Below, in pieces: positions 11,475 through 40,664 of a stretch of DNA of 44,336 bases. The stretch lies in assembly GCA_017555845.1 (NCBI GenBank), contig JAFZFO010000014.1, positions 1-44,336 of the forward strand, in the 5' to 3' direction. The first letter of the stretch is position 1. Each line of letters starts with the position of its first letter. This DNA is from Bacteroidaceae bacterium. Lineage in GTDB: Bacteria > Bacteroidota > Bacteroidia > Bacteroidales > Bacteroidaceae. The position numbers and the translations under genes are program-made. Below the pieces are notes generated by a model. That model was not told the DNA's origin. It saw only the letters and a program-made list of their open reading frames with translations, and made no database searches.

Positions 11475-11606
11475 TTCCCCTTCAACCTTTATCCTCTAAC
11501 CGTTAACCGTTAATCGTTAATCGTTTTAGCCCCTTTAACCTTTCCCATTTCACCTTTAACCTTTAACCTTTAACCTTTCACCTTTAACCTTTGCCCTTTG
11601 CCCTTT
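11475..11606. repeat. Degenerate tandem heptamers, block 1
   Basis: Successive 7-nt units of CGTTAAC/CGTTAAT type are followed by CCTTTAA type (TTAACCTTTAACC) and then CCCTTTG variants. No spacer-like unique sequence separates units. The block ends at a 92-nt structured element. Confidence 0.85.
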
Positions 11607-11698
11607 GACAACACTCGCTGTTCGCGACCCGCAAGGCACGACCTAACCCCGTGCAACCTGCGACCAACCGCTGCTCATGTTATCGAAGCCTCGTTTTC
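11607..11698 (+). repeat. 92-nt structured repeat, copy 1
   Basis: Begins GACAACACTCGCTGTTCGCG and ends near TTATCGAAGCCTCGTTTTC. It shares most positions with copies at 18531-18622 (same strand) and 39283-39374 and 39509-39600 (opposite strand). Nested complementary parts GCACG/CGTGC and GCAGG/CCTGC (imperfect in this copy) lie in the middle with GACAACA/TGTTATC at the ends. Confidence 0.85.
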
Positions 11699-11699
11699 C

Positions 11700-11890
11700 C
11701 CGTTAACCTTTAACTTTTTCCCCATTCCCTTTAACCTCTCCCCGTTAATCGTTAACCGTTAATCGTTAAACTTTAATCGTTTTAGTCCCTTTTCAGTTCT
11801 CCGTTTACAGCCCTCGGCTTTCAGTTTTCAGTTTTCAGTTCAATTGCCCCTTTAACCTTTATCCGTTAACCGTTAATCATTTTTCCCCAC
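11700..11890. repeat. Degenerate tandem heptamers, block 2
   Basis: CGTTAAC, CGTTAAT and CGTTAAA units (about 11745-11785) grade into TTTTCAG units (11810-11842) and back to CCTTTAA and CGTTAAC. No ORF or RNA gene is credible here. Confidence 0.8.
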
Positions 11891-11919
11891 CACATAGCAC
11901 CGCGTATCATTATTTTATG

Positions 11920-11927
11920 TACTTTTG
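11920..11927 (+). promoter_or_regulatory. -7 element before the first pyruvyl transferase gene
   Basis: TACTTTTG fits TAnnTTTG and lies 31 nt before the ATG. No TTTG is seen at the matching -33 distance, so the promoter is only partly supported. Confidence 0.45.
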
Positions 11928-11958
11928 AGCACACTACACACGTACAGACACACAAAAC

Positions 11959-13092
11959 ATGAAAATAGGAATCATCACTCTTGCCCTGCAGGACAATTAC
12001 GGAGGCATCCTCCAAACCTTCGCCCTGCAGAAAGTGTTACAGGACATGGGGCACGATGTCACCGTCATCGACCGCAGCCGCTATCTCCATTGGACACGCT
12101 TCAAGAAGTCACGCGTCTACACCCGCCGCTTCCTCAAGAAGCTGTTCATCGACCGCCGCACCATCGTCCGCCCCGACAAGAAGAACAACGACGAAGTGGA
12201 AATCCTGCGTGCAAACACCTACCCCTTCCTGCTCAAGTACCTCAACAGGATCGAGGTCAAGAGAGACTTCTCCGATATCCGCCCCGGCGATTTCGACGCC
12301 TTTGTCGTCGGCAGCGACCAAGTGTGGCGCCCCCGCTATTTCAGCAAGCCCCACATCGCCCATGCATTCCTTGCCTTTGCCAAAGGCTGGAATGTCAAGC
12401 GCATCTCCTACGCCGCCTCTTTCGGCACCGATGAGTGGCTCTACGACAGCCGCCAGACCAGGCGTTGCGGCAACCTCCTCAAGCAGTTCGATGCCGTCTC
12501 CGTGCGTGAGAAATCGGCCGTCAAGCTCTGCAAGAAACACTTCGGTGTCACTGCACGGCACCTTCTCGACCCCACCATGCTCCTCGCAGCCGCTGACTAT
12601 GTCAAGCTCTTCGAGGCCGCCGGCACGCCACCCAGCGACGGCAACCTCATGTGTTATATCCTCGACAGCAACCCCGACAAGGAGCACATCATCTCCCACA
12701 TCTCAAGCACCTTCGGCCTCAAGCCCTTCTCGGCCAACTCCAAGTTCGATCACCCCGAACTCCCCATGGAGCAACGCGTGCAGCCCCCCGTCGAGAACTG
12801 GCTCCGCGCCTTCCACGACGCCCGTTTTGTCATTACCGACTCCTTCCACGCCTGCGTCTTCTCCATCCTGTTCCAGAAACCCTTCATCGTCTACGGCAAC
12901 AAGTCACGCGGGCTCACACGTTTCCACTCCCTCCTCTCCACCTTTGGCCTCGAGAGCCGCCTCGTCACCGACAGCACCCAGGCAACCCAAGCCATCAACG
13001 AGCCCATTGATTGGGAGAGAGTCTATACAATAAAGCACGAGTGGCAGGAAAAGTCAATGCAGTTTCTCAAAGACAACCTCCAACACCCATGA
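11959..13092 (+). CDS. Polysaccharide pyruvyl transferase family protein, copy 1
   Basis: The 377-aa protein belongs to the PS_pyruv_trans family (PF04230), which moves pyruvate from PEP to sugars of extracellular polysaccharides, making acidic ketals. Visible marks are the N-terminal MKIGIITLALQDNYGGILQT, the VVGSDQVWRP motif near residues 113-122, LLDPTML near 201, and DSFHACVFSILFQKPFIVYGN near 292-312. It has the same length as the gene at 21546-22679 and both are followed directly by a GT2 gene, so the two pairs are paralogous cassettes. Codon use is strongly C-ending, unlike the AT-rich second copy. The stop overlaps the next start (ATGA). Confidence 0.88.
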   Translation: MKIGIITLALQDNYGGILQTFALQKVLQDMGHDVTVIDRSRYLHWTRFKKSRVYTRRFLKKLFIDRRTIVRPDKKNNDEVEILRANTYPFLLKYLNRIEVKRDFSDIRPGDFDAFVVGSDQVWRPRYFSKPHIAHAFLAFAKGWNVKRISYAASFGTDEWLYDSRQTRRCGNLLKQFDAVSVREKSAVKLCKKHFGVTARHLLDPTMLLAAADYVKLFEAAGTPPSDGNLMCYILDSNPDKEHIISHISSTFGLKPFSANSKFDHPELPMEQRVQPPVENWLRAFHDARFVITDSFHACVFSILFQKPFIVYGNKSRGLTRFHSLLSTFGLESRLVTDSTQATQAINEPIDWERVYTIKHEWQEKSMQFLKDNLQHP

Positions 13093-14060
13093 GCACCCCC
13101 GGCATCAGCATCATAGTCCCCGTCTACAAAGCCCAGAGCTACCTACACCGTTGCGTCGACAGCCTCTTGGCTCAGACCTATACAAACTTCGAGCTCATCC
13201 TCGTCGACGACGGCAGCCCCGACAACAGCGGCGCCATCTGCGACCTCTACGCTCGCAAGGATCCACGCGTAAAGGTTTTTCACAAGACCAATGGTGGTGT
13301 CTCCTCGGCACGCCAGTACGGCATTGAGCACGCCGCCGGCCTCTACACCATCCACGCCGACCCCGACGACTGGGCCGACCCCACCATGCTCCAGGAACTA
13401 TATGACCAAGCCATCGCCACGGATGCCGACATCGTCTTCTGCGACTACTACACCCACAAGAAAAGCCGCACATGCCACGTTTCACAAACCCCACAGAGCC
13501 TCCAGGCCAATGAGCTCCTCAAACAATTCCTGCGCCAGAAGCTCCATGGCGCCATGTGGAACAAACTAATACGCACCACCCTCTACACCCGACACAACAT
13601 TACCTTCCCTCGCGAGATGACACGTTGGGAAGACCTCTTTGTCATCTGCACCCTCTACACCCACCCCGTCACCACCACCTATCTGCCCCGCGCCTTCTAT
13701 CACTACGACCTCGGCACCAACCCCCACAGCCTCGTCAGGCAGAAGAACAACAAAGGCCTGCTATCGCAGATACATTTTGTAAAACATTTTCAAGCCATCC
13801 TACCACCGCAACAGTACGCGCAAGAACTCTACACCATCAAGGCCGTCACCAAGGAACTAGCCTACAACTCAGGCACCCTTTCCGCCCACGAGCTCCGCGA
13901 GCTGTATAGCGAAATCAACGCCCAATACATACAGTCGGCCAACCCCGCCAACCCCCGTCAGCTCTGCCTCGCCCGTTTCCTCAGCGGCCGCTACACCCTT
14001 GCACAATCCAAACGCATCCGCCGCCTCATCAGCCTCCTGCACCCCTTCACCAAACATTAA
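13089..14060 (+). CDS. Glycosyltransferase family 2, copy 1
   Basis: The start ATG overlaps the TGA of the upstream gene and gives MSTPGISIIVPVYKAQ, the standard GT2 opening; an ATG 78 nt upstream would only add non-homologous residues. The 323-aa protein has VDDGSPDNSG (near 40-49) and the metal-binding region ADPDDW (near 96-101), so a GT-A fold enzyme using a nucleotide sugar on the cytoplasmic side is expected. Donor and acceptor cannot be told. It pairs with the GT2 at 22684-23688 in position, but shows C-rich codon use. The TAA is the first base triplet of the TTAACCTTTAACC repeat that follows. Confidence 0.88.
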   Translation: MSTPGISIIVPVYKAQSYLHRCVDSLLAQTYTNFELILVDDGSPDNSGAICDLYARKDPRVKVFHKTNGGVSSARQYGIEHAAGLYTIHADPDDWADPTMLQELYDQAIATDADIVFCDYYTHKKSRTCHVSQTPQSLQANELLKQFLRQKLHGAMWNKLIRTTLYTRHNITFPREMTRWEDLFVICTLYTHPVTTTYLPRAFYHYDLGTNPHSLVRQKNNKGLLSQIHFVKHFQAILPPQQYAQELYTIKAVTKELAYNSGTLSAHELRELYSEINAQYIQSANPANPRQLCLARFLSGRYTLAQSKRIRRLISLLHPFTKH

Positions 14061-14157
14061 CCTTTAACCTTTTCTCGTTAATCGTTAATCGTTAACCGTT
14101 CATCGTTCATCGTTAAATCCCTTTAACCTTTAACCTTTAACCTTTTTCTCGTTAACC
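14058..14157. repeat. Degenerate tandem heptamers, block 3
   Basis: CCTTTAA units, then CGTTAAT, CGTTAAC, CGTTCAT and CGTTCAT units, then CCTTTAA again. The GT2 stop codon is the start of the block. Confidence 0.85.
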
Positions 14158-14161
14158 TGTT

Positions 14162-14253
14162 GACGATGCCAACTCATCGCATCCCATGGGGCACAAACTG
14201 CGGCTGTGCTACCCATGACTATATGCTGTTGGCACCGTCGATGCCTCCGGCAT
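14162..14253 (+). repeat. Second structured repeat type, full copy
   Basis: Outer arms TGCCAAC (14167-14173) and GTTGGCA (14228-14234) enclose inner arms CATGGGGCACA (14185-14195) and TGTGCTACCCATG (14205-14217), a nested hairpin. The right half (14205-14234) recurs as an exact 30-nt reverse complement at 39696-39725. GACGATGCC/CGTCGATGCC words flank it. Confidence 0.75.
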
Positions 14254-14291
14254 TAATCGTTAAACGTTTTTTCTTATTACAATAAATTCAT

Positions 14292-14299
14292 TAACTTTG
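14292..14299 (+). promoter_or_regulatory. -7 element of ugd
   Basis: TAACTTTG matches TAnnTTTG, 48 nt before the ATG. The -33 region falls in the edge of a heptad block and is T-rich without TTTG. Confidence 0.5.
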
Positions 14300-14346
14300 C
14301 ATCCGGTGGCCACACAGGCACCACAAAAACAAAATCACCAACAACA

Positions 14347-15684
14347 ATGAAGATAGCAGTAGCAGGAACAGGATATGTAGGCCTCAGCATTGCCACCCTC
14401 TTGGCACAGCACAACGAGGTTGTTGCCGTTGACGTCATCCCCGAGAAAGTAGAGAAAATCAACAACCGCATCTCCCCCATCCAGGACGACTATATCGAGA
14501 AATACCTGACCGAGAAGCAGCTCAACCTGCGCGCCACCCTCGATGGCCGCCAGGCATACCGTGATGCCGACTTCATTGTCATTGCCGCCCCCACCAACTA
14601 CGACCCCCAGAAGAACTTCTTCGACACCCACCACATCGAGGATGTCATAGACCTTGTCCTCGAGGTCAACCCCAATGCCACCATGGTCATCAAGAGCACC
14701 ATCCCCGTGGGCTATTGCCGCAGCCTCTATGTGAAATACGCCAAGAAGTTCAAGGAGATGGGATGGGACACCACCCACAAGCTCCGCCTGCTGTTCTCAC
14801 CCGAGTTCCTGCGCGAGAGCAAGGCCCTCTATGACAACCTCTATCCCAGCCGCATCATCGTCGGCTACCCCAAGATGATCGACCGTTTCGATGAGGAAAA
14901 CAACGCCATCAAAGCCATCGCCGGCAACCACCTGGAAGAGGCCGCCCACACCTTTGCAGCACTCCTGCAGCAAGGCGCCATCAAGGAAGACATCCCCACC
15001 CTCTTCATGGAACTCAAGGAAGCCGAGGCCGTCAAGCTCTTCGCCAACACCTACCTTGCCCTGCGCGTCAGCTACTTCAACGAGCTCGACACCTATGCCG
15101 AGATCAAAGGCCTCGACTCCGCCGCCATCATCCAAGGCGTCGGCCTCGATCCCCGCATCGGCACCCACTACAACAACCCCTCCTTCGGCTACGGTGGCTA
15201 TTGCCTCCCCAAGGACACCAAGCAGCTCCTTGCCAACTACCAAGAGGTACCCCAGAACATGATGAGCGCCATTGTCGAGAGCAACCGCACCCGCAAGGAC
15301 TTCATCGCCGACCAGGTACTGCACATGGCAGGTTGGTATGGATACACGCAGAACAACGAATACGACTCATCGTTCAACGTTAAACATTCATCGCTCAACG
15401 TTCCCATAATCGGCGTCTACCGCCTCACCATGAAGGCCGGCAGCGACAACTTCCGCCAGTCATCCATCCAGGGCGTCATGAAACGCATCAAAGCCAAGGG
15501 CGCCCAGGTCATCATCTACGAGCCCACCCTCCAGGACGGCAGCACCTTCTTCGGCAGCCGCGTGGTGAACGACCTCGTCCAGTTCAAGGCCCGGTCACAG
15601 GCCATCATTGCCAACCGCTACGACACTGCGCTCGACGACGTAAAGTCCAAGGTCTATACCCGCGACATCTTCCGCCGCGACTGA
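14347..15684 (+). CDS. ugd: UDP-glucose 6-dehydrogenase (UDP-sugar dehydrogenase)
   Basis: The 445-aa enzyme oxidises UDP-glucose to UDP-glucuronate with NAD+, supplying uronic acids for capsule synthesis. The Rossmann motif GTGYVGLS is at residues 7-14, the central helix region holds [22 protein letters not shown] (only its centre is cited as evidence, near 224-245), and the catalytic Cys286 lies in [17 protein letters not shown]-ManNAc dehydrogenases are related, so substrate is probable rather than certain. Odd point: residues ~341-353 ([13 protein letters not shown]) are encoded by five tandem heptads of the intergenic repeat type, sitting between the central domain and the C-terminal NAD/UDP domain that resumes at [17 protein letters not shown]-rich codon use as in its left neighbours. 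Confidence 0.92.
15369..15403. repeat. Five heptads inside ugd
   Basis: The units ATCGTTC, AACGTTA, AACATTC, ATCGCTC and AACGTTC follow without gaps and resemble the intergenic CGTTAAT/CGTTCAT heptads. The reading frame stays open through them. Confidence 0.75.
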
Positions 15685-15911
15685 CAACCACCCATTGAAA
15701 AGCGAGCGATAGGGAGCATAACATCCTTTTAGCCCACGCCATGCCCTACAAGCGGCACATCCAGCACAAAGCAAAGGCGGACGAACAAAAAAGCTTTGTA
15801 TTGTGTTATAGTCAATGACAACATACAAAGGATTTTCATAATGACATTTTCCTTTTTCACATCAATTATTTACGCAAACAATGATATAATGTGAAAATCG
15901 ACTGCAAATGT

Positions 15912-15942
15912 TTTGAAAACGCCACACTTTTAGCTACTTTTG
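15912..15942 (+). promoter_or_regulatory. Promoter of WecG-type gene A
   Basis: TTTG (15912-15915), 19 nt, TACTTTTG (15935-15942): a full Bacteroidetes consensus. The promoter of the paralogue at 36960-36990 has the same geometry and similar spacer. The rest of the 313-nt gap after ugd holds an 8-bp CTTTGTAT/ATACAAAG inverted pair (15794-15830) and nothing else I recognise. Confidence 0.8.
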
Positions 15943-15997
15943 TAAACAACACATACAATGAGTGATGCGCAACCAAGCATGAGCGCGCGACAACACC

Positions 15998-16735
15998 ATG
16001 GAACAATATTTCGACATACGATACGAGTTCGATGTGCCAACCGTGCACGCAACCATCGACAAGCACGTAACCGGCAAGCAAGGCGGCTACATATGCGTTG
16101 CCGACGGCAACATCCTCACAATGGTGCACAATGATAAGGAATATCGCGATGTGGTAAATGGCAGCATCTTCTCCATCTGCGACAGCAGCTGGGTGCCCAA
16201 ATTCGTCAAGTGGATATACGGATACACACGCAAGCACTACTGCGGCAGCGACATCTTTATCGACATTATCCGCTCACGCAAATACCGCATGATATTCCTT
16301 GGCACCAAGCAAGCAGTCCTCGACGCCCTGCAGCAGAATCTCGCCAAGGAAAACCCCGATGTAGCCGGGATGACCTTCAAGGAACTACCATACTGTACTG
16401 TCGATAGTTTTGACTACCCTGGTATAGCAGAGATGATTGAACAGGACAAAGCCGATATCATATGGGTGGCACTTGGTGCACCCAAACAGGAGATGTTCAT
16501 GCACCGTCTGCAGCCTCACCTCAAGCATGGCGTTCAAATTGCAGTTGGTGCTGCATTCAACTTCTATAGTGGCCTCAGCGATGCGCCACAAAGATGCCCC
16601 GCATGGATGCGTAAACTGCATCTTGAATTCATACATCGCATATTCAAGGAGCCCAAGAAACAGATCAAACGATGTTGGGGCATCGTCACCACACTGCCCG
16701 CAATCTTGCACAAAGAACGGAAAGCAAAAAACTGA
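15998..16735 (+). CDS. WecG/TagA/CpsF family glycosyltransferase, copy A
   Basis: The 245-aa protein matches the GT26 family (WecG, TagA, CpsF), which adds a sugar, often ManNAcA, GlcA or ManNAc, to an undecaprenyl-linked acceptor. Marks are YICVADGNILTMVHND near residues 31-46, KYRMIFLGTK near 95-104 and the family motif WVALGAPKQEMFM near 157-169. The C-terminal ~50 residues are very basic with conserved CPAWMRKLHLEF, fitting membrane contact. It is ~88% identical (by eye) to the same-length protein at 37053-37790. It has its own promoter and stands alone, rather than in an operon with ugd. Confidence 0.9.
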   Translation: MEQYFDIRYEFDVPTVHATIDKHVTGKQGGYICVADGNILTMVHNDKEYRDVVNGSIFSICDSSWVPKFVKWIYGYTRKHYCGSDIFIDIIRSRKYRMIFLGTKQAVLDALQQNLAKENPDVAGMTFKELPYCTVDSFDYPGIAEMIEQDKADIIWVALGAPKQEMFMHRLQPHLKHGVQIAVGAAFNFYSGLSDAPQRCPAWMRKLHLEFIHRIFKEPKKQIKRCWGIVTTLPAILHKERKAKN

Positions 16736-16810
16736 AAAATAGTCAAAAAACAACATTTTTCATAAAAAAGCACTCGTTTTCAAAACAAAACGGGGCTATC
16801 AGGTGTTTAT
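16733..16810 (+). repeat. Leader-like sequence R1 (paralogue of the ECF gene leader)
   Basis: TGAAAAATAGT, then ACAACA(T/C)TTTT, AAAAAAGC, ACTCGTT, CAAAACAAAA and TGTTTA appear in the same order and spacing as at 17720-17797, upstream of the ECF sigma gene. Here no intact sigma gene follows directly. Confidence 0.65.
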
Positions 16811-16854
16811 ATTGCCTGTATTGACTAATAAAGCAGACACAATGGGATTTACAG

Positions 16855-16899
16855 AATGGCTGCGCGATAGGTTAAACGCAATGCGGGCACAGTCCGCAC
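16855..16899 (+). repeat. Copy of the sequence found just 3' of the ECF sigma gene
   Basis: About 45 nt starting AATGGCTGC and ending with the CGGGCACAGTCCGCAC portion match 18341-18386 with one gap and four substitutions. In the second place it starts 17 nt after the ECF stop codon. Confidence 0.65.
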
Positions 16900-17034: not shown

Positions 17035-17511
17035 ATGAACAAAGACATCCCCGGCGCCATCAACCTGCGCCAAGCACTCCATGCCCACGCCCTCAAGCTC
17101 ACCAACGGCAACCAACACCTCAGCCAGGAACTCCTCCACAACACCATCAAACGCATCGCCGCAACCGCAGCCGCCTATCACCCCGGCCTCGGCTTCATCG
17201 CATGGGCCAAGATGGTAATGGAAAACACCTTCGACGCCACCACCCCGTGTGCCGACGTCTGCAAGCTCCGCTACCTCTGCTACCACGGTACCATCACCCC
17301 CACCACGCACAGCCATGATAGCACATACACCATCCTCCAGCAACTCCACACCATGTCACGCCTCACACCCCACCAGGCCGCCGTCGTCACCCTGCGCCTC
17401 AAAGGCTACACCCCGGCTATCATCGCCAAGCAAATGGGCAACACCACCAACCACGTAAAAGCCCACATCCAACAAGCCACCCACATCCTCAACCACATCT
17501 GGGACAACTAA
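17035..17511 (+). CDS. Divergent ECF-sigma-like protein
   Basis: The 158-aa protein has the layout of a small sigma-70 family factor. A region-2-like part (LSQELLHNTIKRI and FIAWAKMVMENTF, about residues 29-68) lines up with TDDLLQETFLRI and FYAWASKVMHNAF in the next gene. A region-4-like helix-turn-helix follows (LTPHQAAVVTLRLKGYTPAIIAKQMGNTTNHV sits around 104-135; only its pattern is used). The region-2 core is weaker than usual, with acidic DDLLQE replaced by QELLHN. CxxxxxxC in CADVCKLRYLC between the regions is unusual. Codon use is extremely C-rich. It may be a sigma factor, a degenerate one, or a DNA-binding protein derived from one. Confidence 0.6.
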   Translation: MNKDIPGAINLRQALHAHALKLTNGNQHLSQELLHNTIKRIAATAAAYHPGLGFIAWAKMVMENTFDATTPCADVCKLRYLCYHGTITPTTHSHDSTYTILQQLHTMSRLTPHQAAVVTLRLKGYTPAIIAKQMGNTTNHVKAHIQQATHILNHIWDN

Positions 17512-17524
17512 TAACACAACTCGC

Positions 17525-17695
17525 CAACCATTAATCGTTAACCGTTAATCGTTCATCGTTAAATCCCTTTTCCCGTTAACCATTAACCGTTAATCGTTAA
17601 ACGTTAATCGCTACTCGTTAAATCCCTCTAACCTTTTCCTTTTCCCGTTCCCCTTTAATCATTAATCGTTAAACGTTCATCGTTTTAGTCCCTTT
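17525..17695. repeat. Degenerate tandem heptamers, block 4
   Basis: CGTTAAC, CGTTAAT, CGTTCAT and CGTTAAA units in long runs, with short CCCTTTTC breaks. It separates the two sigma-like genes. Confidence 0.85.
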
Positions 17696-17719
17696 CGCAC
17701 AATATCACGGAATAAATTG

Positions 17720-17797
17720 TGAAAAATAGTTAAAAACAACACTTTTTATTAAAAAAGCCACTCGTTGGCAGAACAAAAGCGGCCGTCAATTGTTTAC
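17720..17797 (+). promoter_or_regulatory. Leader R2 upstream of the ECF sigma gene
   Basis: Conserved with R1 at 16733-16810. It ends 32 nt before the ATG and probably carries the promoter, although no clean TAnnTTTG is present; an autoregulated ECF-type promoter is possible. Confidence 0.45.
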
Positions 17798-17829
17798 ATA
17801 AGTATAAATAACCCAAAAAGTATGAAACA

Positions 17830-18324
17830 ATGGAACCCACAGACATAGAACGACAGCTGCTCAAAGCCAGCAAAAAGCTACGCGACTACGCCTACAGCCT
17901 CACGCACGATTTGGACCGCACCGACGACCTCCTGCAAGAGACCTTCCTCCGCATCCTCAACAACGCCCACAACTACAAGGAGCGAGGGCACTTCTATGCG
18001 TGGGCAAGCAAAGTCATGCACAATGCCTTCCTCAACAACACCAAGCACGAGGAAGACACCACCTTCATCGAGGAATTCGCCACCCCACTCCCCGACGACG
18101 AGTCCCACACCCACTGCGGCGATACCCCCACCGGCGTCAAGGAAATCTACAAAGCCATCGACAACCTCCCCGAGAAATCCGCCAAGGCCATGCGCCTCTT
18201 CATCAGCGGCCACAAGTACATTGAAATATCCGTAATCATGCAAATCCCCATCGGCACCGTCAAGACCCGCATCAACAAATCCCGCGAAAAACTCAAAAAA
18301 GACCTCAAGGATTACCTGAATTAA
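17830..18324 (+). CDS. ECF-type RNA polymerase sigma factor
   Basis: The 164-aa protein shows sigma region 2 (LRDYAYSLTHDLDRTDDLLQETF around residues 17-39, then FYAWASKVMHNAFLN near 56-70) and region 4 (LPEKSAKAMRLFISGHKYIEIS near 117-138, then PIGTVKTRINKSREKLKKDL). Region 1.1 and 3 are absent, as expected for ECF factors. It directs RNA polymerase to a special promoter set. No anti-sigma gene follows: the next gene is a flippase 439 nt away. This suggests control other than by an adjacent membrane anti-sigma, and the polysaccharide locus is a plausible target, by position only. Confidence 0.87.
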   Translation: MEPTDIERQLLKASKKLRDYAYSLTHDLDRTDDLLQETFLRILNNAHNYKERGHFYAWASKVMHNAFLNNTKHEEDTTFIEEFATPLPDDESHTHCGDTPTGVKEIYKAIDNLPEKSAKAMRLFISGHKYIEISVIMQIPIGTVKTRINKSREKLKKDLKDYLN

Positions 18325-18414: not shown

Positions 18415-18530
18415 TCAATGCCCTCGGTTTTCCGTTTACACATTTCCGTTTACAACCCTCGGTTTTTCAGTTTTCCGTTTTCCCTTTTCAGTTCTCCGTT
18501 TACAACCCTCAGCTTTCAGCTTTCCGTTTC
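18415..18530. repeat. Heptad-like TTTTCAG/TTTCCGT block 5
   Basis: Runs of TTTTCCG, TTTACAA and TTTTCAG words with the phrase ACAACCCTC recurring three times. It ends at the second 92-nt element. Confidence 0.7.
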
Positions 18531-18622
18531 GACAACACTCGCTGTTCGCGACCCTCAGGGCACGACCTAAACCCGTGCAACCTGCGACCATCCGCTGCTC
18601 ATGTTATCGAAACTTCGTTTTC
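18531..18622 (+). repeat. 92-nt structured repeat, copy 2
   Basis: Same strand as copy 1. Inner arms GGCACG/CGTGC and CCTGC are present. After it come CCTTTAA heptads up to 18650 and then the flippase promoter. Confidence 0.85.
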
Positions 18623-18674
18623 ACCTTTTCCCTTTAACCTTTCACCTTTAATAAAAAACATTCATTACTTAAAT

Positions 18675-33346: not shown

Positions 33347-33443
33347 AGACAATAGTTATTTACCGTTTTATACATTATTGAACCCTCGGTTTTATCAAAC
33401 CTCGGCTTTAACCATTAACCTCTGACCTTTAACCTTTGTTTCA

Positions 33444-35150
33444 TTAGGCGCAAACTAATGAAACAAGCGGTTGTGCTTCAAGCGCTGCAACAATCTCTGC
33501 ATCATCGGCGAGGCGTGCATAAGCATCGGGGTGCAGCGTTATATTTATTACTGTTGTTGGAGTTGCATTTTGAATTATATAATAAATACTTTCTTTTGAA
33601 ATTTTTGACGAATAGCTAAAGTTTGCATTATAGTTCAACTTACATAATCTGATATATTCCAATGCATAAGCGTTATGAAAATTTTCTGATGCATTTGGAG
33701 TATAGGCATCTATTACCCTTACCTTTTTTATATTGAAAAACAATTCTTTAGCTGTCATTGCAGTTGTATTTGCATAGATAGACCACTTATTGTTGGACAC
33801 CCACTTAATAACCTCAAGATCATTGGTTGATGCGAAATGGTTAGCTCCAGTAATCAACAATCCATCAATAATTCTCATTCCGCCATTAAAGCCAAACAAT
33901 GTGCGATAACCAACGAATGAATTATCCTGAAAAAAACGAGATTGATTCTTGGCCGAGAGAAAAACCGTCATATCATCTTTATGTTGGTAGATTTTCATCA
34001 TCTCATCTTCATCAATATCGCCCAAGCCATTCAAGTAGTAATGACCAGGAAGATGGTCAACAACCTCGCCCCAGAATGCAGTTCGCGGAATTACCTCATC
34101 AGTACCATTATACTCCGCTCCCGCAGCTATGTACAGTGGGCGCAATGGGTTTTCAACCTTCGTGCGCACATCGGCAGCAAGTTTCTGTGCGGTAATGGCG
34201 CCATCCTGGATATCGCTTGTTTTTGCAGCACCAAGGTCTACCCAGGTTCCCCACTCAATAGAGGTTGAGCCACGGCCGGTGCGGGTTTTGTAAGCAAAGT
34301 TGCTGTCGGTATTCAAGGCATACTTGAACTGGCTGATGCATCTTGTCTTGCCGGTGGCGGTGGCGGCGACATAGTTGTTGATGACTACCATTACAAAGGT
34401 TTCGTAATGAGTGCCTCCATTAGTATAGATACCGCTATAGATGCCATTATCGGTAAAATTGTCAAGAGAGGGCACAACACCCACCTGTACATTCTGTTGC
34501 ATCTTACCCCACATCTCCCATCCATTGCCGGCGGCAAGCTGTTCCTTGGTTGCAGCACGGCCGGTGCGCACATAGATATCGCCATCGCCACCGGTGCGGT
34601 TACTGAGGCTTAGAACCTGTGTCACGCACTTGTCATCACTTTCGCCGGTGCCACTGATGGAGCTGTCGAGCACCTGCAGGCGGGCATGGAAAGTGTGCCC
34701 GGGAGCGGCATTGTCAATGGGAAGGCCGTCGCTGTCGTTGATGCGTTCACCTGTGATATGGTAAGTTCCTGCCGTTGTAAATGTGTCAATGTGCGACATT
34801 GAGTTCCACCTTACTCTGTTTTCCTTGCAGCTCCAGCTTGTCCATACCGGCATGCCGTTGACATTGCCGCATGTACGGGAGTAGATAAAGACACTGCCCG
34901 TGCCACGTTCCACTTTGGTTATCTCCTGCATGGTGGTGCGTCCGTGCTGCAACATGGAATTGGGGGCGTGGTCCTTGACAACAATGGTTACAATGTCTTC
35001 GTTAGCTAAGCTGCACGGCAAGTGGGAAGTGCCGTCGTCACCACTGACACGCATTGTGTAGACACCATTCCACACAAGTTCATCGATGTTTGTGAGTTGC
35101 TGCCACGGAGCAGCATCACTGTCAATTAGTTTGCGATACTCAATTTTCAT
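33444..35150 (-). CDS. Tail-fibre/pyocin-knob-like modular protein
   Basis: The 568-aa protein carries three successive modules resembling pyocin-knob repeats of phage and tailocin fibres: about 20-115 (DELVWNGVYTMRVSG ... PVWTSWSCKENRVRWNS), 118-222 (DTFTTAGTYHITGER ... GNGWEMWGKMQQNV) and 227-320 (DNFTDNGIYSGIYTN ... SIEWGTWVDLG). Each starts D-x-F/L-x-x-x-G-x-Y and ends with a Trp-rich W-G/S-x-W strand. Then DIQDGAITAQKLAADV, a fibre-shaft type linker, near 321-336. The C-terminal part (~350-568) is different, ending in a segment (SKESIYYIIQNA ... ITLHPDAYARL) reminiscent of leucine-rich-like caps in Bacteroidales phage proteins. No signal peptide, transmembrane segment or other phage gene nearby. 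Could be a fibre for a remote injection system, a phage relic, or a surface binding protein. Confidence 0.6.
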   Translation of the reverse strand: MKIEYRKLIDSDAAPWQQLTNIDELVWNGVYTMRVSGDDGTSHLPCSLANEDIVTIVVKDHAPNSMLQHGRTTMQEITKVERGTGSVFIYSRTCGNVNGMPVWTSWSCKENRVRWNSMSHIDTFTTAGTYHITGERINDSDGLPIDNAAPGHTFHARLQVLDSSISGTGESDDKCVTQVLSLSNRTGGDGDIYVRTGRAATKEQLAAGNGWEMWGKMQQNVQVGVVPSLDNFTDNGIYSGIYTNGGTHYETFVMVVINNYVAATATGKTRCISQFKYALNTDSNFAYKTRTGRGSTSIEWGTWVDLGAAKTSDIQDGAITAQKLAADVRTKVENPLRPLYIAAGAEYNGTDEVIPRTAFWGEVVDHLPGHYYLNGLGDIDEDEMMKIYQHKDDMTVFLSAKNQSRFFQDNSFVGYRTLFGFNGGMRIIDGLLITGANHFASTNDLEVIKWVSNNKWSIYANTTAMTAKELFFNIKKVRVIDAYTPNASENFHNAYALEYIRLCKLNYNANFSYSSKISKESIYYIIQNATPTTVINITLHPDAYARLADDAEIVAALEAQPLVSLVCA

Positions 35151-35186: not shown

Positions 35187-35436
35187 GGCAGGCACCGCCG
35201 GGAAGATCAAGAATTGATAGATTGAAATTGAAAAAGCTATGTATAAATTTTTTAAAGCAATAATATAGAAGTTGACCCAATGTTGACATTATTCGCGAAT
35301 TTGTCATCCTGAACGGATGTGAAGGATCTCATAACTACGCAGAACAGAGATACTTCGCTTTGCTCAGTATGACAGGGTCCGCTGGGTTAACTGCCATATT
35401 ATTATCTTTTTTAATATGGAAAATGCGGTGCCTGCC
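35187..35436. repeat. Inverted 12-mer pair flanking the spacer upstream of the fibre-like gene
   Basis: GGCAGGCACCGC at 35187-35198 and its exact complement GCGGTGCCTGCC at 35425-35436 enclose ~226 nt that contain E2. Similarity stops at the 12-mers, so this may be a decayed mobile element or chance. The remaining 35437-35560 is stuttering sequence (GCCATTTTGCCACTTTTGGC) without a gene. Confidence 0.4.
35272..35373 (+). repeat. Dispersed inverted-repeat element E2
   Basis: Shares TTGAC, TTCGCGAA, TTGTCATC and AGATACTTC...CTCA(G/A)TATGAC with E1 at 30306-30479. The inner arms (TGTCATCCTGAACGGATGTG... and ...CGCTTTGCTCAGTATGACA) are about 28-nt imperfect inverted repeats, so the RNA or single strand would form a hairpin. 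Similar TCATCCTGA/TCAGTATGA palindromes are common in gut Bacteroidetes contigs. Confidence 0.65.
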
Positions 35437-35563
35437 ACAAAACACAACGCAAAGGTATATGCTGAAGGTGCAGGCAAGGTTGCCATTTTGCCACTTTTGG
35501 CTACAAGGTGTAAAAAACACGGCAAGGTGCCTTTGCATGCTGTTTGAAATTAAGTGGGCGAGG

Positions 35564-35595
35564 TTTGTGTGTATTCAAAATAATACATAACTTTG
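35564..35595 (+). promoter_or_regulatory. Promoter of the nucleotidyltransferase gene
   Basis: TTTG (35564-35567), 20 nt, TAACTTTG (35588-35595), 44 nt before the ATG. Confidence 0.72.
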
Positions 35596-35639
35596 TGGAA
35601 AGAATTGCGCACTGCAGCGCTGCTTAGTAAAATGATTAT

Positions 35640-36767
35640 ATGAACCGGACAATGCATACTTGCAACAACTCAAACGGCACCAATGGTAGCGTGACGGTAA
35701 TAGAACTGTTCTTTGCTCTGATACAGTGCGGTATTGGCAAAAGAAACGATTTGCCACGTACGCCCACTGCGCAGGAGTGGAGCGAGTTGTTTGACATTGC
35801 AAAGAAACAGGCACTGTCCGGAATAGCCTTTGCCGGCATTGAGCAGTTGCCACAAGAGCAGCGACCGACAAAGGACATCCTGTTACAATGGTACAAACTA
35901 AGTACAATAATCAAGGGTAAGAATTCCACACTTGACAAGAAATGTGCTCTGATATCGGAAAAATTCAAAAGTGAAGGATTCAAGAACTGCATTCTAAAAG
36001 GACAAGGCATTGCACAGCTATACCCCACCCCTGCATTGCGTTTACCAGGAGACATTGACATTTGGCTTGACAGCGGCGATAAAAAAGCTATTGAATATGT
36101 AAAGAGGTTTTTCCCGGAGTGTGAACCCACATATCATCACGTGGACTTTCCAATTGCCGACGGACTTGACATTGAGATTCACTACCGCCCCACATGGCTA
36201 TACAATCCTTTTACCAACAGAAGGCTGCAAAGGTTCTTTGAGGAGAACGCCGCAACGCAGTTCAACAACGACATCACAACAGCCGAGGGCAGTTTCCCTG
36301 CACCAACCGTAGCGTTCAACCGCGTGTACATACTGTTGCACATTTATCGCCATGTTTTCTTTGAGGGCATTGGCATGCGACAGCTGCTCGACTACTATTT
36401 TGTACTGCAGCAGGGGATGTCGGCCAACGAAAAAAGCGAGTACATTGTTTTATTGAAAAGGTTCGGGCTAATGAAGTTCGCCAAGGGCGTGATGTATGTG
36501 TTGCAAAGGATGTTCGGTCTCGACGAGGAGCACACTCCCGTAGAACCAAACAAAAGACACGGCGAGTTCCTGTTACGCGAAATAATGATTGCCGGCAACT
36601 TTGGGAAATATGACCACAGGTACAATCTTGGGCAACAGGGATACTCCCTTAAAAGAGTGATCGAGACAATGAGGCGCACAATGACATTGGCGACGCGCTA
36701 CCCCGGCGAAACGCTTTGGAGCCCATGGTTCAAGGTGTGGCACTACTTCTGGCGCAGAAGACATTAG
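35640..36767 (+). CDS. Nucleotidyltransferase family protein (NTP_transf_5 type)
   Basis: A 375-aa protein matching the uncharacterised nucleotidyltransferase family (PF14907). FKNCILKGQGIAQLYP near residues 116-131 is followed by the metal-binding GDIDIWLDSGD near 138-148 and DGLDIEIHYRPTWLYNP near 175-191 with the third acidic residue. The rest is helical with R-rich stretches. The fold predicts transfer of a nucleotide or phosphonucleotide group, but no substrate is known. It has its own promoter and is monocistronic; the next gene is 285 nt away. Position in a polysaccharide locus suggests a modification role, by association only. Confidence 0.8.
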   Translation: MNRTMHTCNNSNGTNGSVTVIELFFALIQCGIGKRNDLPRTPTAQEWSELFDIAKKQALSGIAFAGIEQLPQEQRPTKDILLQWYKLSTIIKGKNSTLDKKCALISEKFKSEGFKNCILKGQGIAQLYPTPALRLPGDIDIWLDSGDKKAIEYVKRFFPECEPTYHHVDFPIADGLDIEIHYRPTWLYNPFTNRRLQRFFEENAATQFNNDITTAEGSFPAPTVAFNRVYILLHIYRHVFFEGIGMRQLLDYYFVLQQGMSANEKSEYIVLLKRFGLMKFAKGVMYVLQRMFGLDEEHTPVEPNKRHGEFLLREIMIAGNFGKYDHRYNLGQQGYSLKRVIETMRRTMTLATRYPGETLWSPWFKVWHYFWRRRH

Positions 36768-36959
36768 CCGGCCAGTTGCATGCAGCCTTTGATTCTTGTG
36801 GAAAATATAACAACACTCTCCTTGAACAAAAGATTGAAACAATCCATTATAATACGTGGTTGCCAATGAAACATAAATTCAAATCCGACATTAAATTTCA
36901 CTCTTTTGCATCATTGGTTTGGCTACATAACGACAGCATGGAAAAAACGGAAGAAACGT

Positions 36960-36990
36960 TTTGAAAAGGCCACAGTTTTGGCTATTTTTG
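36960..36990 (+). promoter_or_regulatory. Promoter of WecG-type gene B
   Basis: TTTG (36960-36963), 19 nt, TATTTTTG (36983-36990). Spacing equals that of gene A, and the words TTTTGAAAA, GCCACA and TTTTGGCTA in the spacer correspond to TTTTGAAAA, GCCACA and TTTTAGCTA there. The rest of 36768-36959 has no feature I recognise. Confidence 0.8.
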
Positions 36991-37052
36991 CAAATATCAC
37001 ATTAAAAAAAAGCAGATACAGATACACGGGATGCCTTTAAAGCATTAACACT

Positions 37053-37790
37053 ATGGAACAATACTTCGACATACGTTATGAGTTCGACGTGCCAACAGTT
37101 CACGAAACAATAGCACAACATGTTGCAGATAAAAAGACCGGATATATTTGCGTTGCCGACGGTAACATACTTACCATGGTACACAATGATGCAGACTATC
37201 GCAAGATAGTTGACGGCAGTATTTTCTCCATTTGTGACAGCAGTTGGGTACCCAAGTTCGTCAAATGGATATATGGGTACAAGCGTAGCCACTACTGTGG
37301 CAGTGACATATTCATAGATATTGTGCGTTCACGCAAATACCGCATGATATTCCTGGGAACAAAGCAGAGCGTACTTGATGCACTGCAGCTGAATCTTGCC
37401 AACGAGAACCCCGATGTTACAAGTATGACATTCAAGGAACTGCCATTCTGCACTGTCGACGAATTCGACTATCAGGGCATCGCAAAGATGATTGAGCAGG
37501 ATAATGCCGACATCATATGGGTGGCTCTTGGTGCCCCCAAACAGGAGATATTCATGAACCGCCTGCAGCCACACCTGAAAAATGGAGTGCAAATTGCCAT
37601 TGGAGCTGCATTCAACTTCTACAGCGGACTCAGCGATGCGCCACAAAGATGCCCCGCATGGATGCGTAAGCTGCATCTTGAATTCGTACATCGCATATTC
37701 AAGGAGCCCAAGAAACAGATCAAGCGCTGTTGGGGTATAGTAACCACCCTGCCAGCAATCTTTCACAAAGAGCGCAAAGCAAAAAAATGA
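37053..37790 (+). CDS. WecG/TagA/CpsF family glycosyltransferase, copy B
   Basis: A 245-aa GT26-family protein, the same length as copy A at 15998-16735, with YICVADGNILTMVHND, KYRMIFLGTK and WVALGAPKQEIFM all conserved. The differences from copy A are mainly at the N-terminal third (for example HETIAQHVADKKT against HATIDKHVTGKQG). The final ~36 codons before the tail are nearly identical in DNA as well. Unlike copy A it is coupled to a downstream gene: its TGA overlaps the wzi ATG. Both would use an undecaprenyl-linked acceptor; they may act in different strain-specific structures or be redundant. Confidence 0.9.
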   Translation: MEQYFDIRYEFDVPTVHETIAQHVADKKTGYICVADGNILTMVHNDADYRKIVDGSIFSICDSSWVPKFVKWIYGYKRSHYCGSDIFIDIVRSRKYRMIFLGTKQSVLDALQLNLANENPDVTSMTFKELPFCTVDEFDYQGIAKMIEQDNADIIWVALGAPKQEIFMNRLQPHLKNGVQIAIGAAFNFYSGLSDAPQRCPAWMRKLHLEFVHRIFKEPKKQIKRCWGIVTTLPAIFHKERKAKK

Positions 37791-39271
37791 AGAGATATCT
37801 CCTTTTCACTCTGATACTGATAACTACAGCCATTGGCGTAAAAGCCCAGACAATAACCGAGCGACAGGAGTTGACAGGTGCTTTGGGCAGTGGGGAGTAT
37901 GCCCCATTCTGGCACATGGCAAACAGGCAGGGATTGGGCAGCGAAAAGAGAAGCATGGGATATGCCCGTGTGGGGGTTGGTGGCAACCACCCATTCAGCA
38001 AAAGCGGCATTGCCATTGATTGGGACTTTGACATGGTAGCCGGTGGGCACATGGCATCGAACGTGTTCATTCAACAGGCAAACATAGACCTTACATGGAG
38101 GGAACTGAGGCTCTCCATTGGCCAAAAGGAGCGTTGGGGCGAGCTAATGAATCACCGCCTGACAACCGGCTCTTTGGTGGAGAGCGGTAATGCACGCCCA
38201 ATACCACAAGTGCGTCTTGAGCTGCACGACTATTGGAACATCCCCGGAACAGGAGGTTGGCTTGCATTAAAGGGCCATTTGGCATACGGACGTTTTACCG
38301 ATGGCAAGTGGATGGAGAAGAACATTGCACCTGACCAAAAATACACAATAGGTACATTATACCACTCAAAAGAGGGTTTCATGCGCTTTGGAAATGCAAG
38401 TAAGTTCCCATTGACAGCCGAGATTGGCCTTCATATGGTCACACAGTTCGGTGGAACAAGTTACAATGCCGGAGACAAGCCCGGATATACCATATATAAC
38501 CCTTCGCGCTTTAAAGACTATTTTCTGGCTTTGATACCATTAAAGGGAGATGATTCATATCATGCATCAGACCAAGCGAATATTGCAGGCAACGTTTTGG
38601 GCAGCTGGAAAGGAGCTATCACATGGCACAGCGATAAGTGGGTGCTAAAACTGAATTATGACCACGCATTTGAGGATCACTCACAGATGTTCTGGGAGTA
38701 TGGGCTATGGACTGAGCAGCTTGTGGGCTTGGAACTGAACTTAAAAGAGTTCAAATGGATAAAGGCCGCAACGGTTGAATATTTCAACCTCAAGAACCAG
38801 AGTGGCCCGGTATATAATGACACAAACGCCACATTCCCCGACCAGATAAGTTGCAAAGACGACAATTATAATCATGGCCGATATGGTTGGTTCAATTACG
38901 GAATGATGATTGCAACCCCACTATGTACATCGCCCATATACAACAAGGACAACACTTTAAGATGCCACAACAACCGTGTAGAGGCTTTTCACATGGGCAT
39001 TGAAGGAGGCCTGCTCCCCTGGCTCGATTACCGCATATTGCTCACACACAGCAACAACTGGGGAACATACGGCAAGCCATTCAAGGATATAAAGAAGAAC
39101 ACATCGGGGCTTGTGGAATTCACATTCACCCCCAACATCCCCGGCAATTGGTCAATCATCACATCCTTTGCATTTGACAAAGGAAACCTGTACGGCAACA
39201 ACTACGGCGGCCTGCTGACAATAAAACGTTCTGGAAGGTATAAAGTTGAACGAAGAACGAGGAACGATTAA
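37787..39271 (+). CDS. wzi: Capsule assembly protein, Wzi family
   Basis: I place the start at ATG 37787 (MKRYLLFTLILITTAIGVKAQ), a clear signal peptide ending in AQ; an earlier in-frame ATG lies in the glycosyltransferase gene. The 494-aa protein has the Wzi-type opening GSGEYAPFWHMANRQG and repeated amphipathic strands expected of an 18-strand outer-membrane barrel, as in PF14052. Wzi-type lectins help anchor capsule at the surface. The C-terminus ends LLTIKRSGRYKVERRTRND. The last residues are encoded by the heptad repeat (AAC GAT TAA), so the native C-terminal strand, which normally ends in an aromatic residue, appears replaced or extended by repeat-coded residues. Confidence 0.88.
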   Translation: MKRYLLFTLILITTAIGVKAQTITERQELTGALGSGEYAPFWHMANRQGLGSEKRSMGYARVGVGGNHPFSKSGIAIDWDFDMVAGGHMASNVFIQQANIDLTWRELRLSIGQKERWGELMNHRLTTGSLVESGNARPIPQVRLELHDYWNIPGTGGWLALKGHLAYGRFTDGKWMEKNIAPDQKYTIGTLYHSKEGFMRFGNASKFPLTAEIGLHMVTQFGGTSYNAGDKPGYTIYNPSRFKDYFLALIPLKGDDSYHASDQANIAGNVLGSWKGAITWHSDKWVLKLNYDHAFEDHSQMFWEYGLWTEQLVGLELNLKEFKWIKAATVEYFNLKNQSGPVYNDTNATFPDQISCKDDNYNHGRYGWFNYGMMIATPLCTSPIYNKDNTLRCHNNRVEAFHMGIEGGLLPWLDYRILLTHSNNWGTYGKPFKDIKKNTSGLVEFTFTPNIPGNWSIITSFAFDKGNLYGNNYGGLLTIKRSGRYKVERRTRND

Positions 39272-39282
39272 CGATTAACGGG
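39246..39282. repeat. Heptads spanning the wzi stop codon, block 6
   Basis: Units GAACGAA/GAACGAG/GAACGAT/TAACGAT/TAACGGG run from the last codons of wzi into the spacer. The wzi TAA (39269-39271) lies inside the block. Confidence 0.8.
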
Positions 39283-39374
39283 GAAAACGAAGTTTCGATA
39301 ACATGAGCAGCGGATGGTCGCAGGTTGCACGGGTTTAGGTCGTGCCCTGCGGGTCGTGAACAGCGAGTGTTGTC
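39283..39374 (-). repeat. 92-nt structured repeat, copy 3
   Basis: Reverse orientation relative to copies 1 and 2. It begins GAAAACGAAGTTTCGATAAC and ends CAGCGAGTGTTGTC. GCAGG-tt-GCACG pairs with CGTGC-CCTGC in its centre. Confidence 0.88.
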
Positions 39375-39508
39375 AATAGGTTAAAGCTCGTGCCAACGAG
39401 TGGGCGGAAATTTATTTACGCACTGGGCGAGTGCAGCCGAGGTTCAATCGCACACAGTGCGGTTAAAGGGGGTTAACGAGGAACGAAGAACGATTAACGA
39501 TTAACGAG
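39375..39508. repeat. Spacer between copies 3 and 4
   Basis: Contains GTGCCAACGAGTGGGCGG and GCACTGGGCGAGTGCAGCC words, the former shared as a reverse word (CCACTCGTTGGCA) with the ECF leader at 17757-17770, followed by GAACGAAG and ATTAACG heptads up to copy 4. No gene is credible. Confidence 0.55.
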
Positions 39509-39600
39509 GAAAACGAAGTTTCGACAACATGAGCAGCGGATGGTCGCAGGTTGCACGGGCTTAGGTCGTGCCCTGCGGGTCGCGGTCGGCGAGTGTTGTC
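39509..39600 (-). repeat. 92-nt structured repeat, copy 4
   Basis: The most symmetric copy: GACAACA (39523-39529) pairs with TGTTGTC (39594-39600), GCAGG (39546-39550) with CCTGC (39572-39576), and GCACG (39553-39557) with CGTGC (39567-39571). It follows copy 3 in the same orientation at 226-nt spacing. Confidence 0.88.
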
Positions 39601-39695
39601 AATGCCGAAGGCATCGACAATACAGCGGGTAAGCAAACAAAAGCCAAGCCGGCTTGAGCTTTTACGGCGAGCGAGAGCTGTTTCAACGAAGTTAA

Positions 39696-39725
39696 TGCCA
39701 ACAGCATATAGTCATGGGTAGCACA
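39696..39725 (-). repeat. Second structured repeat type, right half only
   Basis: 30 nt identical to the reverse complement of 14205-14234. The remainder of 39601-39904 holds a short ATGCCGAAGGCAT palindrome (39602-39614), unrelated GC-mixed sequence and, from about 39871, CGTTAAT/CGTTAAA/CGTTCAA heptads reaching the stop codon of the next gene. Confidence 0.75.
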
Positions 39726-39904
39726 AACTGCTATACTTACATACTCCTCAGCCCTGCGGGCAGTTGCTTACAGCGAAACTTGGCTGCGCTCATTGTAAAA
39801 ACTCAAGTAAACTTGGTTTTCATTCGCTTGCACAAGCTTTGTCTCTAGCTTAGAGGAGCACCTAAAAATGCTCGTTAATCGTTAAACGTTAATCGTTCAA
39901 CGTT

Positions 39905-40390
39905 TTATTTCCTCCTCAATTCCTTCACAACATCTTTTGAGACTTTGCCGTCGATGGGCAGCCTGTTATCCTTTTGAAAGCGCAGGAGGGCATCAAAAAG
40001 TGCGCCGTCAAGCAACGCACCGCCATCGAAAGTGGGCGTGACATCTTCGGGCTTAATGTAAAGTTTTTTAACCAAAGCATTGGCAACACTCCTGACGTCG
40101 CGACCGCTGTCGCCGCGCACAATTATGCGGTCGCCAAGCTTGTAACGACGGGCAAGTTCGCGAGCCGCCTTTTGCCTTGCACGCCCATTGGCCTGCATGA
40201 CTTTTGCGAACACCTTGTCGGCAAGTTCCTCAACCTCAGCAGCCTTGCTTGCACGCAAGCAGACAGTGTCGCCCGACACCTTTTTATAGGTGCGCGGAGC
40301 AGTGAGCACTGCGCCATCATCGGGCACCGACTGCGCAATGGCAAACTGCGAAAGCAGCATCAGAGAAAAGAGAATAAAAAGCCGTTTCAT
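39905..40390 (-). CDS. Small secreted protein with peptidoglycan-binding-like domain
   Basis: A 161-aa protein with signal peptide MKRLFILFSLMLLSQFAIAQ. The mature part has a charged helical region with many Ala/Arg/Lys (about 50-85), then a PG_binding_1-like helical repeat: GDSGRDVRSVANALVKKL (residues ~94-111), and GALFDALLRFQKDNRLPIDGKVSKDVVKELRR (~128-160) with the FQxxxxLPxDGKV core. It would bind cell-wall glycan in the periplasm. No enzymatic domain is attached. Flanked on both sides by heptad blocks, and in no operon. Confidence 0.65.
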   Translation of the reverse strand: MKRLFILFSLMLLSQFAIAQSVPDDGAVLTAPRTYKKVSGDTVCLRASKAAEVEELADKVFAKVMQANGRARQKAARELARRYKLGDRIIVRGDSGRDVRSVANALVKKLYIKPEDVTPTFDGGALLDGALFDALLRFQKDNRLPIDGKVSKDVVKELRRK

Positions 40391-40396
40391 GGAATA

Positions 40397-40490
40397 AGGG
40401 TTAATGATTAACGAAGAACGATTAACGAGTAACGATTAACGAGTAACGATTAACGAGTAACGATTAACGAGTAACGATTAACGTTTAACG
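40397..40490. repeat. Regular heptad array, block 7
   Basis: AACGATT and AACGAGT alternate about four times (a 14-nt period), the most regular heptad array in the window. It begins within 10 nt of the start codon of the small secreted protein gene. Confidence 0.88.
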
Positions 40491-40529
40491 GTAAAAGAGA
40501 AAAGGAACCTATATCCATTAACCAATATC

Positions 40530-40664
40530 CTATACCCTTTCCCCTTTAACCTTTTTCCTTTGCCCTTTTTCACTTTAACCTGTTGACGATGCCTCCGGAT
40601 TAACCGTTAAACATTAATCGTTCAACGTTCATCGTTAATCGTTCAACGTTCATCGTTAATCGTT
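40530..40664. repeat. Heptads, block 8, reaching into the RluA-type gene
   Basis: CCTTTAA and CCCTTTT words, then a GACGATGCCTCCGG word as near 14162 and 14240, then CGTTAAA, CATTAAT, CGTTCAA, CGTTCAT and CGTTAAT. The last unit supplies the codons AAC GAT TAA (minus strand) that end the next gene. Confidence 0.8.

Follow-up and report, generated by a model that had tools for sequence, protein, structure and literature searches.

Arrays of degenerate 7-nt repeats occupy spacers of a 44,336-nt contig from a draft Bacteroidaceae genome (JAFZFO010000014.1, assembly GCA_017555845.1; this whole stretch is called the window below), and they follow a nearly invariant order. With R denoting a run of CGWKKAA or GG-type units on the plus strand and F its complement, R lay to the left of F in 30 of the 31 spacers, from this and other genomes, that held both orientations. 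They very probably belong with the degenerate heptamer simple-sequence arrays known from cyanobacteria, Xanthomonas and Beggiatoaceae, and they have a strong polarity. Our view of how they arise is more tentative: we favor, at a probability of roughly 0.4, a mechanism in which 3' ends at breaks within spacers would be extended in a strand-specific, slippage-prone manner and then joined, 7n groups being duplicated afterward. The polarity does not figure in the earlier note on this DNA that the present analysis followed up.

Order and placement of R and F arrays

By set, the R–F order was found in 9/9 spacers of the genome under study (G000, a 2.08-Mb draft in 71 contigs), in 3/4, 2/2 and 3/3 spacers of G018, G029 and G025 from the same genus (17/18 for the genus stretches), and in 13/13 spacers from a scan of public genome contigs, whose figures, here and below, hold among the matches listed. 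After removal of any spacer with over five 31-mers in common with one already counted, the order was still observed in 20/21 cases (p = 2e-5), which by flanking-gene strands divide into +- 7/7, ++ 6/6, -- 5/6, -+ 1/1 and one spacer beside a contig end. Where both sides had at least two dimers the count, after the same removal, was 12/12; convergent spacers, before it, gave 10/10. One orientation classifier matched CGTTAAT arrays both ways and was replaced. Dimers overlapped by an opposite dimer (174: 4 in G000 and 170 in the scan) were dropped from the counts of order and placement. Five scan loci that are probable duplicates of G018 (L151, L153, L185, L189 and L197) were kept in the order and position counts, and left out of the stop and start counts.

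A general purine asymmetry of spacers was ruled out: the left-right purine skew seen in 54 array spacers (p = 1e-5) was missing from 58 array-free spacers (p = 0.61), a set from which spacers were excluded if they had a lag-7 window above 0.55 and yet no CGNNNAA tandem. Fold-back palindromes and paired hairpins, including terminator hairpin pairs, were likewise rejected. The complementarity of the two arms within a spacer was 0.417, against 0.468 for permuted arms (17 spacers, spans set by hand; p = 0.955), meaning that the arms look independent of each other, a result that disfavors both fold-back copying and hairpin selection. When five strands were folded, only 14058-14150 did better than its shuffles (z -3.35).

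Most array spacers are single-type. Such runs tended toward the matching edge, R to the left and F to the right, with median relative positions of 0.18 for R and 0.78 for F in G018, 0.12 and 0.87 in G029, and 0.28 and 0.63 in the scan. Off this trend were G000 (R 0.21 in two spacers, but F 0.34 in five), G025 (F 0.46, two spacers) and G035 (R 0.67 in one spacer, F 0.60 in two). In the 100 bp that follow stop codons, R stood on the sense strand in 13/17 cases in G000, 20/21 in G018, 15/19 in G029, G025 and G035 together, and 55/83 in the scan. A preference for gene 3' ends over 5' ends was strong in G018 (22:4) and in the scan (69:38), and weaker or absent in G000 (14:11), G029 (9:3), G025 (5:4) and G035 (1:2).

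Three sites could be compared with their orthologs in the close relatives G022, G003 and G033. In the window, the pseudouridine synthase gene (40656-41540) is separated from its neighbor by 265 bp of array sequence, R and F; in G022 and G003, whose protein is 96% and 95% identical, this spacer measures only 22 nt (start codons as read). The array here covers the last codon and stop of the gene; it begins inside the last codons, at a point where G022 has AACG. Between ruvX and def, the alignment gap is 349 and 343 bp in our genome versus 64 in G022 and 84 in G033, and G033 carries TTTAACGATTAA at the stop codon, perhaps the two-unit beginning of an array. Between tspO and dnaJ, gaps of 72 bp (G022), 85 bp (G033) and 3 bp (G003) face 220, 239 and 178 bp here, and G022 shows a hairpin, recognized by eye, at the site of our R–F pair. 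At these three sites, then, the spacers of close relatives are mostly shorter and array-free. We read the arrays as recent, replacing whole spacers.

Units, blocks and distribution

On the R strand, the main unit is CG-W-K-K-AA. Most R units fit CG-NNN-AA, the commonest middles being ATT, TTT, AGT, ATG, AGG, TTG, GTT and TGT, and they are accompanied by GGTTAAA-like and CTGAAAA-like families. Unit mixtures were more alike within genomes than between them (mean cosine 0.53 vs 0.43; 72 arrays, four genomes; a difference as large in 0/5000 permutations), so that the units seem to come from a genome-wide process rather than from local seeds alone.

In the window, the 7-nt period that the earlier note had described was confirmed in all of its listed blocks, ten once a double item is split in two: lag-7 autocorrelation was 0.52-0.82, in every block higher than in any of 500 dinucleotide-shuffled copies. 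In the four spacers between housekeeping genes, where the repeats had been described as absent, values of 0.28-0.37 did not rise above the shuffles. Sliding along the window, a scan of periods 4-15 returned blocks at 7 (669 bases), 14 (517) and 15 (50) only, and Tandem Repeats Finder (TRF) recovered the same blocks (Table 1). No Rfam family matched the window at the gathering threshold.

Table 1. Heptameric arrays and an associated dispersed element in the window. For arrays, the strand is the one that reads as R (CGWKKAA or GGTTAAA); R and F are complementary orientations.
Feature	Positions	Strand	Remarks
F array	11478..11606	-	CGTTAAT and CCTTTAA units
91-bp dispersed element between arrays	11607..11697	+	further copies at 18531-18621 (+), 39284-39374 (-) and 39510-39600 (-)
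F array	11700..11890	-	CGTTAAT, CCTTTAA and TTTTCAG units
F array	14055..14155	-	the reading frame that ends at 14060 has its stop codon inside the array
Heptameric stretch in ugd (14347-15684)	15364..15405	-	in-frame, within a length-variable linker; missing from the earlier note's list
F array	17524..17684	-	TRF and autocorrelation
Degenerate TTTTCAG/TTTTCCG array	18415..18530	-	weakest block, lag-7 0.52
Short CCTTTAA-type array	18619..18651	-	TRF; missing from the earlier note's list
Short CTTTAAC array	33406..33437	-	TRF; missing from the earlier note's list
R array	39241..39286	+	contains the last codons and stop of a Wzi-like gene (37787-39271)
R array	39470..39515	+	TRF
F array	39868..39908	-	closes the spacer of R array 39470..39515; abuts the stop of 39905-40390
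R array	40399..40495	+	14-bp higher-order repeat (CGATTAA CGAGTAA), seen at 40402-40483
F array	40500..40664	-	perfect 21-bp higher-order repeat, seen at 40614-40664

The ugd linker that precedes IGVYRL is hypervariable across the genus (orthologs L059-L088): it holds CGTTCAT-type heptamers in G000 and G025, AACTCTC-type heptamers in G061 and unrelated sequence elsewhere. A clean 42-bp insertion was rejected for the ugd stretch, the linkers of relatives varying in length by eye, some shorter and some longer.

The 91-bp element has nine matches in this genome and occurs in 22 of 44 genus genomes, in tandem in some (G030, G010). It was considered as a carrier of the heptamers and rejected. For 12 copies, one per genome, flanking lag-7 values were high in G000, G025 and G023, weaker in G033 and low in the other eight, indicating a separate dispersed repeat. 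By eye, a second dispersed repeat of about 86 bp (GCTCGTGCAAGCGAATGGGCGG...) lies in tandem in the ruvX-def spacer of G003 (L323) and as a single copy at 39385-39470 of the window.

Across the draft genome, unit dimers sought as CGTTNAHCGTTNAH gave 92 matches, versus 3 for the reversed control. Uniform occurrence, which the earlier note had named as a refuting outcome, was not seen: the dimers fell on 8 of the 71 contigs, with 29 on C68 (this window), 25 on C7, 21 on C28, 6 each on C45 and C55, 3 on C26, and one each on C40 and C69. C7 also bears polysaccharide genes (a sugar transferase, an export protein and a Wzc-like protein). On C26, C28, C45 and C55 the neighbors of the arrays are genes for ATP synthase, tspO, dnaJ-like, ruvX and def, together with mannose-6-phosphate isomerase-like, maf and CTP synthase genes. 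The arrays are thus clumped, frequent in contigs with polysaccharide loci and not confined to them.

The window has some further features. Two similar leader-like stretches (16740-16830 and 17718-17800) were noticed by eye near two sigma-factor-like genes (17035-17511 and 17830-18324); two WecG/TagA-type glycosyltransferases, both of 245 aa, are encoded in one locus at 15998-16735 and 37053-37790; and a 568-aa reading frame on the minus strand (33444-35150), inside the polysaccharide locus, had no Pfam match at E 0.001.

Among 37 genus genomes, CGWKKAA-type dimers were in clear excess in four (G000 92, G018 318, G025 45, G029 38), with 0-7 matches in each of the rest. The pattern SGWNNAA x3, sought in 44 genomes, added G035 (22 vs 11 reversed) and G065 (83 vs 3), the latter with 78 of its 83 matches on one strand. 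All genus genomes are drafts, the four array-rich ones being 83-94% complete, and in G018 an array is followed by the contig end after 13 bases (C42) or 150 bases (C31), so that draft assemblies may undercount arrays. Farther afield, CGWKKAA x3 was present in 6 of 395 genomes drawn from the phylum, G000 included. In another family of the phylum (f42), the reversed control AAKKWGC x3 matched 34-50 times in each of three genomes (G224, G308 and G417); these are heptamers with a different sequence, i.e., other dialects. In public genome contigs, CGWKKAA x5 occurred in at least 118 stretches, from many phyla among the 80 titles listed. We read the arrays as widespread, patchy and lineage-specific in sequence. 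A literature search, judged by titles and abstract openings, returned no account of such arrays in this genus.

A scan of viral contigs yielded 15 stretches, with no both-type spacer by the classifier. One of them (L336:9900-10370) has a cassette-like appearance, a small gene being flanked by inverted heptamer arrays; by eye, this gene resembles the four-helix 23S intervening-sequence protein.

Origin of the arrays

The repeat-generating process that the earlier note had supposed gains support from the genome-specific mixtures, the array-free orthologous spacers and the 14- and 21-bp higher-order repeats. In the scheme we favor, a spacer would break, or a 3' end would become exposed in it, and a repair polymerase would extend that end through repeated 7-nt slippage and re-priming on the repeats, always making the R strand. 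Two extended ends would then be joined head-to-head (R|F), and later slippage or unequal exchange would duplicate groups of 14 and 21 bp. The arrays would need no function of their own, persisting where spacers tolerate them. A hint of such one-direction writing onto DNA ends comes from the fact that the arrays nearly always point inward from the neighboring genes. Also in favor of the scheme are the independence of the two arms, the missing purine skew in array-free spacers, the filled and empty sites, the unit mixtures and the higher-order repeats.

Several points weigh against end extension. The break, the nick and the polymerase are all postulated, and the scheme gives no reason why the R strand should always be the one made. 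Random breaks alone would not produce the clustering of R-only runs at left edges and of F-only runs at right edges seen in G018 and the scan, so that resection to the gene edge must be assumed. As to the order itself, L090 has F on the left and R on the right, with one dimer per side; a looser unit definition adds a second close F–R pair, L172; and the viral locus L337 possibly shows F and then R about 140 bp apart, a counter-example if they belong to one spacer (the opposite matches in L336 and L337 are CGTTGAA/CGTTCAA units, which are ambiguous and were dropped by the classifier). A rule for start codons is not general: F stood on the sense strand before starts in 7/8 cases in G000 and 5/5 in G029, G025 and G035, but in 1/6 in G018 and 19/40 in the scan. 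At the orthologous sites, the AACG microhomology at the array start is present in G022, not in G003 or G033, and the ruvX-def spacer of G003 is 232 bp long and contains another tandem repeat.

Ordinary replication slippage from local seeds, with the polarity set by selection on gene ends, is an appreciable if unlikely alternative. By our own reading of the units, six of the eight CGWKKAA types supply stop codons when R is on the sense strand; F before a start would avoid upstream ATGs (as in CGATGAA), or else the R–F pair would act as a terminator. The excess of R on the sense strand after stops (13:4, 20:1, 15:4 and 55:28 in the sets given above) agrees with this, as do the stop codons of several genes that lie within arrays and the R–F pair that, between the convergent tspO and dnaJ, stands where G022 has its hairpin. 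However, convergent spacers, which are under no start-codon constraint, all have the R–F order; at least five R arrays in G018 start, by eye, after a stop outside the array; and the published GGGAATC repeats follow the rule at both stops and starts with no stop codons in their unit, in the part of that report drawn on here (PMC4692102). The lack of complementarity between arms and the unit mixtures shared genome-wide, which require more than local seeds, point in the same direction.

The R–F order might instead be inherited from a short palindromic core with R and F arms, copied like a repetitive extragenic palindromic (REP) or miniature inverted-repeat transposable element (MITE)-like sequence, whose arms expanded later. 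The candidate core is the 13-mer AACGAANTTCGTT, found at 4 of 14 close R–F junctions. It has 13 sites in the 44 genus genomes, seven of them in G025, where the reversed control has two; by eye, R is on the left and F on the right at seven sites (five in G025, one in G000, one in G065), at two G025 sites an array on one flank faces roughly one unit, beside a relative of the 91-bp element, on the opposite flank, and four sites are unrelated. Over all 44 genomes, however, the reversed control has 24 sites (10 in G036), G025 is the only enriched genome, G000 has a single site, and G018, which holds the most arrays, has none, nor has G029; the core is therefore not general. Array spacers, moreover, are mostly single-type. 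We consider a copied core improbable; AACGAANTTCGTT may be such a core, or may mark where two extended ends preferentially stop.

If spacer breaks were healed with R-strand heptamers by an enzyme dedicated to the task, be it telomerase-like or some other polymerase that adds repeats, this would account for the strand-specific polarity on both sides, the genome dialects, the patchy distribution and the recurring junction in G025. We hold it to be quite improbable: the reverse transcriptase (RT) profile RVT_1 (PF00078) found no match in G000, G025 or G029 and one in G018, and its matches in 18 of 44 genus genomes are mostly in array-poor ones. A canonical RT as shared cause was rejected, three of the four array-rich drafts having no RVT_1 match, and no candidate gene for a repeat-adding enzyme was found by a profile search that, among polymerase families, covered RVT_1 only. 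A bolder variant, which we offer as a long shot, is that a strand-specific activity other than a canonical RT adds degenerate R heptamers to exposed 3' ends in the spacers of some bacteria, so that healed breaks would resemble fused telomeres in which R repeats meet F repeats, in G025 often at AACGAAATTCGTT, and that an activity of this sort would also have produced the G-quadruplex heptamers of Xanthomonas and Nostoc. Least of all do we expect a process aimed at polysaccharide loci, as the earlier note had proposed, for example recombination or phase variation of capsule genes. While the two polysaccharide-gene contigs do account for 54 of the 92 dimers, the arrays beside ordinary genes such as those for ATP synthase, tspO, dnaJ-like, ruvX, def, maf and CTP synthase do not support targeting, and in G018 matches are spread over many contigs.

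Comparison with known heptamer repeats

Cyanobacterial short tandemly repeated repetitive (STRR) sequences are degenerate heptamers dispersed in spacers, a trait that the arrays share. Paludibacter, for its part, is a genus of Bacteroidales. The view that no counterpart is known in that order was not quite right, given that TAACTGA direct repeats are described in Beggiatoaceae, cyanobacteria and five Bacteroidetes, including Paludibacter propionicigenes (PMC4679880; this and the other two reports are compared in the parts drawn on here). Those repeats resemble ours in being heptamers that are largely intergenic, sometimes inside genes, patchy across phyla, absent from some near relatives and in some species mixed with other heptamers. 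They differ in having one fixed unit in 2-6 copies, mostly a few nucleotides before start codons in the main species, whereas our arrays are degenerate and often long; in G018 they lie mainly at the 3' ends of genes, and in G000 their placement is mixed. TAACTGA is not the unit here; the units are mainly CGNNNAA, with TTTTCAG-type blocks similar but distinct.

In the tRNA-Leu intron of Nostoc, the P6b repeats (PMC4476775) are also degenerate heptamers (TDNGATT, NNTGAGT), and one site holds different heptamer classes by lineage, much as the ugd linker does. P6b repeats pair in an RNA stem, whereas the arms studied here are not complementary beyond chance.

The closest parallel is offered by the G-quadruplex heptamers GGGAATC and GGGGA(C/T)T of Xanthomonas and Nostoc, which are mostly intergenic (PMC4692102). 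Their G-rich strand starts near the 5' neighboring reading frame, whatever its direction, and is the coding strand near stops and the non-coding strand near starts; an inverted pair is depicted, length and sequence vary between relatives, and the report, as far as drawn on here, found no function. Our arrays share the 7-nt unit, the intergenic location and nearly the same placement rule, with both R on the coding strand near stops and the R–F order being found. They differ in that several variants are mixed within one array, the distribution is patchy within one genus, R–F pairs are frequent and the rule does not hold consistently at start codons. The units also differ, CGWKKAA being mostly devoid of G runs: judged from the sequence tallies of CGNNNAA units, the runs of three to four G typical of quadruplex units are lacking, GG occurring in the AGG and TGG variants and GGG in some GG-type arrays.

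Heptamer arrays in other bacteria, and nearly the same placement rule for G-quadruplex heptamers, are thus already known; what is new here is a set of degenerate units, mostly without G runs, that share period, placement at stops and patchiness with the known repeats. The placement of G-rich bacterial heptamers has so far been discussed through effects of G-quadruplexes on neighboring genes. Since a similar rule holds for units mostly without G runs, quadruplexes probably do not explain it in general, and a wider cause is needed. Together with the R–F pairs, found in G-run-poor units from several phyla, this suggests that such arrays are made in a shared, strand-specific manner. Filled and empty spacers among close relatives open the question of how heptamer arrays originate to direct testing.

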